Assembly: GCA_017991395.1 (NCBI GenBank)
Contig: JAGOQQ010000003.1
Coordinates: 66,400-109,084, forward strand
Origin: Minisyncoccota bacterium
GTDB taxonomy: Bacteria > Patescibacteriota > Minisyncoccia > Phycocordibacterales > UBA9973
Direction of reading: 5' to 3'
Length of the DNA: 42,685 nt
Every line of letters starts with the position of its first letter. Within the stretch, counting starts at the first letter, position 1. The notes beneath the pieces were generated by a model. The model was not told where the DNA came from, did not search any database, and was given only the letters and a program-made list of their open reading frames with translations. Shown piece by piece: positions 5,503 through 38,239 of the stretch. A program made the translations under genes and the position numbers.

Positions 5503-5552
5503 CTGAACGCAGAAGAAATCAAGTCTACAATTTTCAAATTGAATCTGTATTG

Positions 5553-5579
5553 TGTCATCCTGAACTTGTTTCAGGATCT
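5553..5579 (-). repeat. Dispersed CCTGAAAC-AAGTTCAGG palindromic repeat, copy 1
   Basis: A 27-nt repeat whose core ATCCTGAA/TTCAGGAT is palindromic. A second copy lies in inverted orientation at 5775-5801, so the two bracket a ~250 bp segment. A third lies at 38190. From general knowledge, very similar sequences are scattered between genes in many unrelated bacterial genomes. Confidence 0.75.
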
Positions 5580-5774: not shown

Positions 5775-5801
5775 AGATCCTGAAACGAGTTCAGGATGAC
5801 A
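5775..5801 (+). repeat. Dispersed CCTGAAAC-AAGTTCAGG palindromic repeat, copy 2
   Basis: AGATCCTGAAACGAGTTCAG continuing to GATGACA; it is the inverted partner of the copy at 5553-5579 with one internal mismatch. Confidence 0.75.
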
Positions 5802-12372: not shown

Positions 12373-13761
12373 TTATACTACTTTTGGATTTTCACATCGC
12401 TGATCTTTTGGATCAAATACTGTTGGTTCGAGTTCATCTCCGCGAAGAATATGAGCAATTCGTTCCCCTCCATACAGTGATGGAAGGATTCCCACACCAT
12501 TGCACCCAAGATTGTATAAAAGTGTTGGATTACAAGGCTCTCTTCCGACAATTCGCAGATAATTTTGTGTAAATCCCATCAATCCGTGCCATTTGAATTC
12601 ATAATTTATTTTCTCAGGACTATCACTATAGGTGTGTCGAACAAATTCGTCGATATTCTTGTGAGCCTCTTCAGGATATAAGTCTTTTGATGAATACGCA
12701 CTCGCGTCTTCAAGCCATGCACCCGGACCACCAACAGAAATCAAATTCACCGCACGATCATCACGTGGTTCATAGGGTCGACGCGTCAGATAAAAATACG
12801 AATCTTTTGATTCCATTTTTGAATCTGGATCATTGATATACGTAAGTGCGGTCGGAGATTTTCCATTTTCATCTGTATACCCTGCCATATATCCTACGTA
12901 TCCACGAACTCGATGATGAAATTTCAAGTCGATATCTGCACCTTCTTTGTTGGTGAGGGTAATATTTTCAAATCCATTTGTACAAAGCACGACACTTTCA
13001 ACATCCACCACACCTTGAGGAATCGATAGCGTTGCTTTGCCCGCATATAATTCAATTTCAAGTACTGGTGTATGCTCTGACACCACGAATCTGTCTGTGT
13101 ATTCACGAAGCAAATACCCCACAAGCTCTTCGGTAAAAAGTGCACTATTCATACAACCGGCTTTTTCTTGCCCAAGTGCAATATACTTTTCATCCTTTGA
13201 TTCAAGAAGTGACAAAATATTTTCTTTTGTTGTTCTCTTCCATAGTCCAACATATTCATCAAACTCAGGAGAAAGTTCTACGCCATCTTCAATCAAGACC
13301 GGCCACACCGGCAGTCCACCACTTGCTTTTATATCATTGTCTTTCAAAAGTCGAAGGATTTGATCCACGTGTGTGAGTCCAACTGATTTGATAAACGAAC
13401 TCATCGGTGTTTGAAGTGCGGTGTCTAAAAGAATTTCATCAAGTATTGTCCAACCACGTTCGAGTGCTTGCTGAGCTTGTATTGCATGATCTTTTCCATA
13501 CTCACGTGCAATATCATGAAGTGGACGTTCAAAATATCCTGCAACCTGACCAGCATTGTGACCTGTCGCTCCATGTGCAATCTCACGTTGTTCGAGAAGT
13601 GCGATTTTTTTGTCTGTGTACTTTAATAAAAAATATGCAGTTGTAACTCCAGCAATTCCACCACCGACGATTGCGACATCGGTCGAATCTATCGCATCCT
13701 TTGTAATTACGGGACGTGTTCTGTTGAGTTGTGTTAACCAAGGTGATTTATTTTCAAACAT
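12373..13761 (-). CDS. FAD-dependent oxidoreductase (DAO family)
   Basis: 462 residues. A dinucleotide-binding motif (DVAIVGGGIAGVTTAYFLL, about residues 30-48) opens the protein, followed by the ATGHNAGQV segment typical of the DAO superfamily (glycine/D-amino-acid oxidases, GlpD-like and YurR/PuuB-like enzymes). The C-terminal NLGCNGVGILPSLYGGERIAH segment fits the second FAD-contact region. The substrate cannot be told. I start at the ATG at 13761 because an extended -10 (TGG-TATACT) lies 7 nt upstream; an upstream extension of 50 codons would run through that promoter and the rnpB terminator. No Shine-Dalgarno motif is present. It sits directly after rnpB on the same strand. Confidence 0.9.
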   Translation of the reverse strand: MFENKSPWLTQLNRTRPVITKDAIDSTDVAIVGGGIAGVTTAYFLLKYTDKKIALLEQREIAHGATGHNAGQVAGYFERPLHDIAREYGKDHAIQAQQALERGWTILDEILLDTALQTPMSSFIKSVGLTHVDQILRLLKDNDIKASGGLPVWPVLIEDGVELSPEFDEYVGLWKRTTKENILSLLESKDEKYIALGQEKAGCMNSALFTEELVGYLLREYTDRFVVSEHTPVLEIELYAGKATLSIPQGVVDVESVVLCTNGFENITLTNKEGADIDLKFHHRVRGYVGYMAGYTDENGKSPTALTYINDPDSKMESKDSYFYLTRRPYEPRDDRAVNLISVGGPGAWLEDASAYSSKDLYPEEAHKNIDEFVRHTYSDSPEKINYEFKWHGLMGFTQNYLRIVGREPCNPTLLYNLGCNGVGILPSLYGGERIAHILRGDELEPTVFDPKDQRCENPKVV

Positions 13762-13768
13762 ATATTGT

Positions 13769-13774
13769 AGTATA
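13769..13774 (-). promoter_or_regulatory. Extended -10 promoter, leaderless, of the FAD oxidoreductase gene
   Basis: TGG-TATACT ends 7 nt before the ATG at 13761. It lies immediately after the rnpB terminator hairpin. Confidence 0.65.
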
Positions 13775-13783
13775 CCAAAAAAG

Positions 13784-13812
13784 AAAAAACACTGCTTTCG
13801 CAGTGTTTTTTC
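13784..13812 (-). terminator. Terminator of rnpB
   Basis: AAAAAACACTG pairs with CAGTGTTTTTT around CTTTCG/CGAAAG, about 10 nt beyond the P1 helix of RNase P RNA. Confidence 0.8.
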
Positions 13813-13926
13813 ATCTGTGGTGTTGTATCTATAAGCCGAATTCTGTATCTTTATTCCGAAGAATAAAAACGATAACCATTTATCTAGGATGTATGTTGCC
13901 ATACACCTCAAGCGATTCTCCCGAAC

Positions 13927-14080
13927 AGCTTATAGGAAACAGGTTATAAGTGATAGTAATTTGTAAGCGACTAGCTACTAGCATCTAGCTTTTACCCCTC
14001 CGCCCTTCGGGCACCTCCCCTCACAGGGGAGGCTTAAATTCCGAATTCACTATCCACTATAACCTATTCCCTAACCACTG
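13927..14080 (-). repeat. Palindromic element inserted in rnpB, copy 2 (154 nt)
   Basis: In RNA sense it follows GGG and begins CAGTG..TAGGGAATAGG and ends CCTGTTTCCTATAAGCTG; TAGGGAATAGGTTATAGTGG pairs with the matching end sequence as a terminal inverted repeat of about 24 bp. The interior contains a GCCTCCCCT/AGGGGAGG hairpin, GCCCGAAGGGC, and a CTAG-rich run (GCTAGTAGCTAGTCGC). It is about 93% identical to copy 1 by eye. Confidence 0.85.
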
Positions 14081-14240
14081 CCCAAGCACGATCTTGCACA
14101 CGAGTAAGGATTTAGCCGTTTCAATTTTATGTTGCCATAAAACTATTCCATGAAGGAATTCCTTTCCTTTCGGATTGGACGTCTCTGCTCGCACCTCTAT
14201 CCTTGCGGACGACGGGTATTACCCGCTACTTTTTCAACAC

Positions 14241-14401
14241 AGCTTATAGGAAATAGGTTATAAGTGATAGTAATTTGTGAGCGACTAGCTACTAGCATTT
14301 AGCTTTTAGATTTTACCCCTCCGCCCTTCGGGCACCTCCCCTCATAGGGGAGGCTTGAATTGCGAATTCACTATCCGCTATAACCTATTCCCTATTCACT
14401 G
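14241..14401 (-). repeat. Palindromic element inserted in rnpB, copy 1 (161 nt)
   Basis: The same element as at 13927-14080, with a 7-nt insertion (TCTAAAA in RNA sense) and a handful of substitutions. Its ends also read CAG...CTG, and the terminal inverted repeats are better matched than in the other copy. There is no coding capacity, so it is MITE-like in form. Confidence 0.85.
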
Positions 14402-14477
14402 TTATTGAATGTGTTCGGACTTTCCTCACTTTACATTATTGCTAATGAAAAGCGCAGTTACCCAATACAACTTTTTT

Positions 14478-14483
14478 ATTATA
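14478..14483 (-). promoter_or_regulatory. -10 box of rnpB
   Basis: TATAAT on the minus strand, 6 nt before the predicted 5' end of the P1 helix at 14471. The -35 region (TTTTAT or TTTATT) is weak and overlaps the T tract of the upstream gene's terminator. Confidence 0.6.
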
Positions 14484-14503
14484 CCACATTATTGGCAGAA
14501 ATA

Positions 14504-14530
14504 AAAGGCCCACAAAAAACGTGGGCCTTT
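14504..14530 (-). terminator. Terminator after the T9SS-like surface protein gene
   Basis: AAAGGCCCAC pairs with GTGGGCCTTT around a 7-nt A-rich loop, followed on the minus strand by TATTTC. It lies 17 nt past the stop at 14548. Confidence 0.75.
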
Positions 14531-14547
14531 GGGCACTATCTTAAATT

Positions 14548-16071
14548 CTACTTCACAAAAAACTGCATACTTCGTGTACCAATATTTGCAATATACACAC
14601 CTGACACAAGATCAACATTATACGATCCATTCGATTGAATATCACTCGAATGCAAACATCTACCTTGTAGATCATACACACTCAATGTTTCGTTTCCGAA
14701 ACCACTGAAATGAATTGCTGAATTTTCTCCATCAAAAAATATTTTTGTAGAGTTTTTTTCATTTTCATCAACAGAAGTCGTCCCTGGCATTGTGAGTGTG
14801 CACATATCATCCATCTGACCGAGCTGGTTAAATATATATGCTTTGACTACATATGTAGTGCTTGGCATAAGTCCGCTCATTATCATCATGGTGTATGTTC
14901 CTCCAAGCGCTGATGGTAGTCCCGAATAAATTTGAGAAAATGCAATCGCATTGTTCAAATCATTTGGAAGAAACGCAAGCAGATACATGGAATTATTTCC
15001 GTATCCACCAGTACTGTAGAGAATGTCTACCATTCCTGTTTGTCCGACACTATAACAATTTGTTATAGATATTTCATACAAACCCGAAGCGGTCGAAAAT
15101 CCAGTCGACCCGTACACCGTAGTCCATGCTGGATTGCTCGAAATAATCTGAACATTCACGGTCACACTGTCGAGCGGACCACATACAGTTACAAGAAAAT
15201 TCAAACTTGAAGTTCCTGCACTATATGCCTGCGGTGGAAGAGAATACGTTTGTCCACCACACACAATCTGTACAAACACCACACCGCCGATTGAATCAGC
15301 AGAGAGTGTCACTGTGACAACTCCACCTTGATCGGTAATGTTTGAAACACTTATCGTATCGAAGGACGGAGGATTTGCCAGCAATGCCGGTGTCGTCACC
15401 ACAGCATGTAGTGACGTATCGAGGAACAATGGAAACATTTGATTGAATCCAATTGCGCGATACCACCGCGTGGTAGCTGGAGATTGAAACACGGTAAGTG
15501 TATCATTCCCAAGATCGTTTGTTCCCACGACTTGATGTGTCGTCAGAAAATTCCATTGTCCACCACTGGTTGAATCCTGCCATGTCATAAACACAGTTCC
15601 ACCGCCATTTCGATTAAATGGGACGGTGAGTAATGCAGAATACGAAGTGGTATTTGAAACAACAATTGTCGGTCCAACATCCAGAGGACTCGGCGGACTC
15701 GAAAGTGTCGAGTCAACAATGACAATCGAATCAATCAAGGTTCCTTGTATAAACACAGTATTAATCGTGTATACAGAACCTGCCATGAGTCCTCCCATTC
15801 CCACCGTATCAATCACGGCACCCGAAATACTTATTGGTGAGGAGACACTTGGTGGCGTAATGCCATTGTAGAAAGTAGTTTGCGCAATCGCACTAGTACC
15901 GGCACCGAAATGCCGAACTATTGCGAGAGAATCATACCCGCGATGAATCACCGTCACGCTATCAAGTGAGAGTGTTTCGAGATTCTTCAGCGGGACAAAC
16001 AGACTTTGCCCGAAGACTGCCGTGTGTAGACACACTACGGCAAAGAGAATTAGAGTTTTTTTCATTTTCAA
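14548..16071 (-). CDS. Exported Fn3-like protein with T9SS type A-like C-terminal sorting domain
   Basis: 507 residues. A signal peptide (MKMKKTLILFAVVCLHTAVFGQ region in two parts) ends in FGQ, a cleavage context common in Bacteroidota. The body is a string of beta-rich, Fn3-like segments. The last ~80 residues (ETLSVYDLQGRCLHSS, GSYNVDLVSGVYIANIG, SMQFFVK) match the pattern of the type A sorting domain recognised by the type IX secretion system of Bacteroidota. No T9SS component is in the window, and T9SS needs an outer membrane, which this lineage is thought to lack. Unlike most neighbours, it has a leader of about 15 nt downstream of a TTGACA/TAAAAT promoter. Horizontal acquisition is a plausible inference. 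Confidence 0.8.
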   Translation of the reverse strand: MKMKKTLILFAVVCLHTAVFGQSLFVPLKNLETLSLDSVTVIHRGYDSLAIVRHFGAGTSAIAQTTFYNGITPPSVSSPISISGAVIDTVGMGGLMAGSVYTINTVFIQGTLIDSIVIVDSTLSSPPSPLDVGPTIVVSNTTSYSALLTVPFNRNGGGTVFMTWQDSTSGGQWNFLTTHQVVGTNDLGNDTLTVFQSPATTRWYRAIGFNQMFPLFLDTSLHAVVTTPALLANPPSFDTISVSNITDQGGVVTVTLSADSIGGVVFVQIVCGGQTYSLPPQAYSAGTSSLNFLVTVCGPLDSVTVNVQIISSNPAWTTVYGSTGFSTASGLYEISITNCYSVGQTGMVDILYSTGGYGNNSMYLLAFLPNDLNNAIAFSQIYSGLPSALGGTYTMMIMSGLMPSTTYVVKAYIFNQLGQMDDMCTLTMPGTTSVDENEKNSTKIFFDGENSAIHFSGFGNETLSVYDLQGRCLHSSDIQSNGSYNVDLVSGVYIANIGTRSMQFFVK

Positions 16072-24738: not shown

Positions 24739-25125
24739 ATGGGCCGTGTCTCAGTCCCATCGGTGGGGGTCAGGCTCTCACCTCCCCTAGACGTCATAGC
24801 CTTGGTAGTCCTTTACACTACCAACTAGCTGATATCCCGCAGGCCGTTCCTTGAGCGAAAAACTTTACTCCGGAGAGTCTATCGTGTATTAGCTCACCTT
24901 TCGATGAGTTGTTCACGACTCAAGGGTACGTACCCACGTGTTACTACCTCGTTCGCCACTAACTTTTAAGAGTATTCATAATCATTCCATATTGCTACTT
25001 CATAATCACTTCAACAATAAAAGTCCGTTCGACTTGCATGCCTTATCCACGCCGCCAGCGTTCATCCTGAGCTAGGATCAAACTCTACTTAAAAAACTCG
25101 TGAGGACCGAAGTCCGCCACAAGCC

Positions 25126-38188: not shown

Positions 38189-38216
38189 GGATCCTGAAAC
38201 AAGTTCAGGATGACAC
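38189..38216 (+). repeat. Dispersed CCTGAAAC-AAGTTCAGG palindromic repeat, copy 3
   Basis: GGATCCTGAAACAAGTTCAG continuing to GATGACA; nearly identical to the copies at 5553 and 5775, 32 kb away. Confidence 0.8.
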
Positions 38217-38239
38217 AATACTGAAATCCACTAAAGTCT

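Follow-up and report, generated by a model that had tools for sequence, protein, structure and literature searches.

Two copies of a palindromic element in the RNase P RNA gene of a Minisyncoccota bacterium and palindromic insertions in rnpB of related genomes

The RNase P RNA gene (rnpB) in the 42,685-nt stretch of Minisyncoccota DNA analysed here (the window) is interrupted by two long inserts, which raises the question of what these inserts are and how both came to lie within one RNA gene. The sole rnpB match of the 0.76-Mb genome (8 contigs; completeness estimate, 99.9%) was located at window positions 13816–14473 on the minus strand, covered positions 1–367 of the RF00010 model, and was assigned to class A. 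The fit to the model (75.8 bits, E = 5e-23) was below the gathering cut-off of 100 bits because the two inserts do not fit the model. The gene is 658 nt long with the inserts, compared with the usual 340–380 nt, and a core of 341 nt remains once they are removed. All eight conserved blocks of rnpB are present, five of them without a mismatch to the probe. These results agree with the preliminary description of the locus, according to which removal of the inserts leaves a normal RNA of approximately 337 nt. A hairpin followed by a T-run lies directly downstream of the gene (13779–13812, minus strand) and, judging from its sequence, is a probable intrinsic terminator; the same hairpin also gave a chance sRNA match in cmscan.

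Alignment and the RF00010 match confirmed that two nearly identical inserts lie in different arms of rnpB. The arms were assigned from the adjoining conserved blocks. Copy 1 (155 nt; 13926–14080, minus strand) is at the tip of the P16 arm on the 3′ side of the RNA, and copy 2 (162 nt; 14240–14401, minus strand) is at the tip of J5/7, a small hairpin located between P5 and P8; the earlier attribution of this 5′-proximal insert to P8 is thereby corrected. The copies share one orientation and are 90% identical over 163 columns with one 7-nt indel counted; their alignment scores 223 bits, and they differ by approximately 8 substitutions and the indel. These values replace the earlier estimates of 154 and 161 nt and of approximately 93% identity by eye.

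The inserts have the termini CAG...CTG, as previously stated. The terminal inverted repeats, described earlier as approximately 24 bp long, are long and imperfect and pair over approximately 26 bp, but they are arrays of degenerate 7-nt words and not a unique 24-bp repeat. On the RNA strand, the outer words are GTGAATA, GGGAATA, GGTTATA, GCGGATA, and GTGAATT, and the inner words are GCTAGTA and GCTAGTC. The left end of copy 1 (13926–13990) contains GTGATAG/GGTTATA followed by CTAGCTA/CTAGCAT and pairs with the right end (14036–14080), which also consists of degenerate 7-nt words. A GC-rich double hairpin, TTACCCCTCCGCCC...GGGGAGGCTT, called module A, occupies the middle of the element (13992–14035 in copy 1 and 14313–14356 in copy 2), in accordance with the internal hairpins reported before. 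Folded alone, copy 1 gave −72.3 kcal/mol against −45.4 kcal/mol for shuffled sequences (z = −6.9), and copy 2 gave −70.6 against −41.2 kcal/mol (z = −7.1). The predicted folds indicate that both inserts close on themselves and would only lengthen the host hairpin. No target duplication was recognisable at either insert on inspection of the sequence; the sequences on either side pair with each other as a stem, so that replacement of the hairpin tip would not be expected to leave a duplication. No group I or group II intron family among the Rfam covariance models matched positions 13700–14600 at E ≤ 0.01, and identification of the inserts as introns was dropped.

The complete element was found in two places only in the 0.76-Mb genome, both of them in rnpB, and searches of the genome, the genus (a single species), and the family gave no further complete copy. 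Module A has approximately 30 further copies in the genome, many of them 83–98% identical and the best 92–98%. Module A together with the right end was found once outside rnpB (G000:C7:2833-2914, 83 nt, 92%), and, by eye, this right half shares with copy 2 several nucleotides that are different in copy 1. Many of the places that carry module A also hold other short repeats, namely the palindrome GTCATCCTGAACTTGTTTCAGGATC, 11-nt words, and more 7-nt words. Dispersal in the genome therefore concerns parts of the element and not the whole unit. The designation as MITE-like holds with respect to the short length, the paired inverted ends, and the lack of coding sequence, but the many complete dispersed copies that characterise a MITE are not present. 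A palindrome of 26–35 nt, TGTCATCCTGAACTTGTTTCAGGATC, occurs at window positions 5544–5578, 5775–5801, and 38190–38224; it is dispersed and also lies beside many module A copies. The Y1 transposase family PF01797 had no match in the genome, and a control search found it in 10 of 14 known genomes; a REP/RAYT origin was ruled out on this ground.

We examined the arms of rnpB in related genomes. In same-family genera such as G015, G033, and G008, the arms at both insertion sites are short hairpins of 30–40 nt, and the inserts are therefore additions and not universal extensions of the clade. The earlier proposal of a non-autonomous palindromic element at hairpin tips where it is tolerated is supported. 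In a sample of 60 genomes of relatives, rnpB was detectable in 51. At least one arm was expanded by more than 45 nt in 21 of these 51 genes, and the same sequence was present in at least two arms in 6; this sample is less biased than the census described below.

Arm lengths anchored on the eight conserved blocks were obtained for 141 rnpB loci in total. This census is enriched for low-scoring, interrupted genes and does not estimate prevalence, and some arm boundaries, those of P3 above all, come from a simple pairing search, so that single cases can be wrong. Within it, 27 of the 141 loci (19%) carry the same sequence in at least two arms of the gene at ≥40 bits, compared with different-arm matches in 1.5% of different-genome pairs. 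P18 is almost never expanded. In G327 (L136), a 136-nt insert is 100% identical in J5/7 and P16, and its copying within rnpB was apparently very recent, to judge from this identity. In G245, the inserts in J5/7 and P9 are 97% identical over 138 nt; G020 carries one element in P3, J5/7, and P19, and G285 carries one element in five rnpB arms. These results indicate that palindrome insertion into rnpB has recurred across the order with unrelated sequences. In E. coli, the two sites of the window gene correspond to both strands of pseudoknot P6, and P6 was therefore considered as the reason for the choice of sites; this explanation was dropped, since other genomes duplicate other pairs of arms.

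One family of elements, CCAATTTTG...CAAAATTGG (about 115–150 nt), was searched for in 40 whole genomes, 18 of which were known carriers. The family occurred at 27 places in 19 of the 40 genomes, and 26 of the 27 places were in rnpB (arms P3, J5/7, P9, P16, or P19), with the qualification that the family model was built from rnpB copies and could miss very different copies elsewhere. The only match outside rnpB was at G194:C3:43542-43632. Between genomes, same-arm copies are 65% alike, which is no more than the 66% for copies in different arms, and the place of the family in the gene is therefore not strictly inherited.

Some rnpB inserts of the order encode a protein. An ORF of 80–90 codons lies between inverted repeats in the P16 arm of G129, G216, G292, and G340 and in the P3 arm of G124. 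Pfam identified GIY-YIG domains in the ORFs of G129, G216, G292, and G124 (E = 1.8e-13 to 6.4e-18), and the G340 ORF is closely similar to that of G216. Inserts that lack the ORF and share their ends with the nuclease-coding element are present in P3 of G216 and in P19 of G292. The five rnpB copies of G285 share their ends, CCGAGCACCTTC...GAAGGTGCTCGG, with the GIY-YIG element in the 23S rRNA gene of the same genome.

A protein-family search of 197 genomes of the order, with a subsequent covariance scan of the 20 top-ranking new loci, located GIY-YIG genes inside 16S rRNA (G044 and G175), inside 23S rRNA (G285), and adjoining tRNA 5′ ends (G215, G180, G156, G273, and G130). At the tRNA loci (L236–L239 and L241), some of the elements are accompanied by a second copy of the start of the tRNA (approximately 10 nt); elements in this position, immediately upstream of a tRNA gene, would fall in the 5′ leader that is removed by RNase P. 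The window 16S rRNA (24930–25060, minus strand) has approximately 50 additional nt around helix h6, the same place where G044 and G175 hold their GIY-YIG element with inverted repeats. An inverted repeat scoring ≥11 surrounds the ORF in 25 of 30 GIY-YIG loci, against a cross-pair control with a median of 7 and a 95% point of 12, which includes related ends and is raised by them. Several intergenic GIY-YIG elements have direct repeats of 4–6 nt at their ends, some of which are due to chance, as the element boundaries could be moved by up to 3 nt in this comparison.

The window genome itself contains five small GIY-YIG genes. One element, with the ends CCCCTCAC...GTGGGGGG, is situated in a probable T-box leader preceding an Asp/Asn-type aminoacyl-tRNA synthetase (L230/L233, G000:C3:68362-68613). 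The T-box model is matched weakly there (30.5 bits), but the AGGGTGGCACCGCG motif is present. The GIY-YIG ORF of this element has the inverted repeats CCCCTCACAACTTTT...AAAGTTGTGGGGGG, and the flanks GAGAAATTAG/GAGAAAGTAG resemble an imperfect 10-bp duplication. At L226 (G000:C5:60497-60697), a small GIY-YIG gene lies between inverted repeats, CCCGTTAGAGACA, just before topA, and at L228 (G000:C5:65179-65406) another lies between inverted repeats with GTCATCCTGAACTTGTTTCAGGATC-type ends. The latter two loci suggest that the dispersed palindromes of the window genome are relatives of GIY-YIG elements. One of the five small genes has module A copies at a distance of less than 700 nt, possibly by coincidence. 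None of the five genes has flanking repeats that match the ends of the rnpB element, and no GIY-YIG or other ORF was found in the window inserts; the window element thus lacks the ORF between inverted repeats that defines a GIY-YIG palindromic element. An autonomous partner with the same ends, as expected of a MITE, was found for the elements of G216, G292, and G285 and not for that of the window. Position and shared ends link other rnpB elements to the nuclease, not the window's.

We consider it probable that both inserts derive from one self-folding palindromic element, which entered rnpB once and was then copied within the gene. The element would have entered one arm and then been copied to the second, and its position and fold suggest that it would survive by folding on itself and lengthening a peripheral hairpin, with no need of splicing. 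The copying may have been driven by a GIY-YIG nuclease or by replication template switching between palindromes, and the window element would be an ORF-less product of such a process. The preliminary description had left open whether the element was inserted twice or was inserted once and copied; the second option is favoured, given that the genome has no complete copy outside the gene and that multiplication within rnpB is common in the clade. Against this reading, transfer between arms of one gene without shared homology has no demonstrated mechanism. A purely replicative origin, in which template switching or gene conversion between palindromic arms acted without any nuclease, would fit the restriction of copies to rnpB in several genomes, the distance of only a few hundred nt between the arms, and the lack of an ORF in most duplicated elements. 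We nevertheless find it rather doubtful, since GIY-YIG ORFs with inverted repeats occupy the same arms, and inverted repeats, in several cases together with short direct repeats, also mark the nuclease-coding elements of rRNA, tRNA leaders, and intergenic DNA. Two independent insertions of a genome-wide MITE would account for the interspersion of the central module and for the outside right half that sides with copy 2. This course of events is unlikely, as both arrivals would have struck one 341-nt gene with no other complete copy in the genome, and an element family is confined to rnpB in other genomes.

The remaining explanations concern the fate or the reality of the inserts. Fragmented 23S rRNA of other bacteria is a precedent for the excision of intervening sequences by RNase III, and the terminal stems of the inserts resemble RNase III substrates in an otherwise intact core. 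That RNase III cuts out both inserts and leaves a working RNase P RNA in three pieces is nonetheless improbable in our estimation, and such processing would be compatible with, not opposed to, the reading of the inserts as a mobile element. Selection for lineage-specific functional helix extensions could be argued from the long extensions common in the clade, which are reported as “large extensions of helices” (PMC8172020), but the same sequence in unrelated arms, the unrelated sequences in the same arm of relatives, and the short arms of the sister genera make this very improbable. An assembly artefact that duplicated a repeat inside rnpB is scarcely credible: the genome was assembled in 8 contigs, but the copies differ from each other in sequence, and the same pattern recurs in many other assemblies.

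In addition to single entry and copying, the distribution of the nuclease genes allows a broader proposal, which we regard as possible and put forward tentatively. The double insert of the window may be one descendant of a previously unrecognised class of mobile elements specialising, in this clade, in hairpin tips of essential structured RNAs. The putative class would comprise elements in which inverted repeats, often CCCCYCAC...GTGRGGGG, enclose a gene for an 80–90-aa GIY-YIG nuclease, and also ORF-less derivatives capable of multiplying in rnpB. Its candidate sites would be RNase P RNA arms, 16S and 23S rRNA, the T-box leader, and tRNA 5′ ends.

Palindromic elements of the Rickettsia/Wolbachia type are self-folding palindromes of 100–150 nt inserted in genes, RNA genes included. 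The window inserts likewise self-fold within an RNA gene, but their complete copies are confined to rnpB, and relatives in the clade have an rnpB-restricted family and nuclease-coding versions; no report of Rickettsia palindromes in rnpB was found in the open-access literature. In cyanobacteria, short tandemly repeated repetitive (STRR) sequences bring degenerate 7-nt words into a peripheral arm of rnpB and are also dispersed in the genome; they were reportedly described in rnpB by Vioque in 1997. The window inserts resemble these sequences in bringing such words into a peripheral arm. They differ in that a GC-rich double hairpin is enclosed by the words, which are arranged as inverted repeats, that the whole unit is present in two arms, and that the host, judging from its genome size and kinship, is of the Candidate Phyla Radiation (CPR) type. 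A passage of PMC2858038 cites the 7-nt STRR repeats of cyanobacterial rnpB.

GIY-YIG ORFs have been reported in non-intron insertion sequences of CPR 16S and 23S rRNA genes, mostly at the top or base of stem-loops, and were judged to be outside homing (PMC11270868). The clade elements are similar in that inserts other than introns, placed at the tops of stems in a gene for a structured RNA, encode small GIY-YIG proteins, whereas the window inserts have no ORF; that study mentions neither RNase P, inverted repeats, nor ORF-less partners with shared ends. IS1272-type transposition replaces inverted repeats without target duplication (PMC5678879). The window sites are also inverted repeats without a visible target duplication, but no transposase gene, such as this conventional IS carries, is linked to the inserts. 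The CPR helix extensions of PMC8172020 are very probably the same phenomenon seen from the structural side, although that work did not identify them as repeats, as mobile elements, or as copies present in several arms. We found no paper on GIY-YIG elements or MITEs in rnpB in the open-access literature, nor a description there of multi-arm rnpB copies, an rnpB-confined family, or ORF-less elements paired through common ends with nuclease-coding ones. Relative to this literature, multi-arm rnpB copies, the rnpB-confined family, GIY-YIG ORFs in rnpB, and pairing by shared ends may be new, and cyanobacterial 7-nt rnpB repeats, CPR helix extensions, and GIY-YIG ORFs in CPR rRNA inserts were already known.

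Although RNase P RNA is an essential molecule of nearly all organisms, palindromes have invaded it repeatedly in this order of tiny, streamlined bacteria, and a single rnpB gene can hold as many as five copies of the same element. This essential ribozyme gene is a recurrent home of parasitic palindromes, and approximately 4 in 10 relatives have expanded arms. Such invasion would help to account for the many CPR rnpB genes that standard models fail to detect (only 137 of the 297 genomes of the order score over the rnpB cut-off) and for the extended helices of CPR RNase P RNA (PMC8172020). Because ORF-less palindromes are tied to small GIY-YIG nucleases, the way in which such palindromes move becomes testable. 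These results suggest that splicing is not required for an essential ribozyme to harbour parasites.
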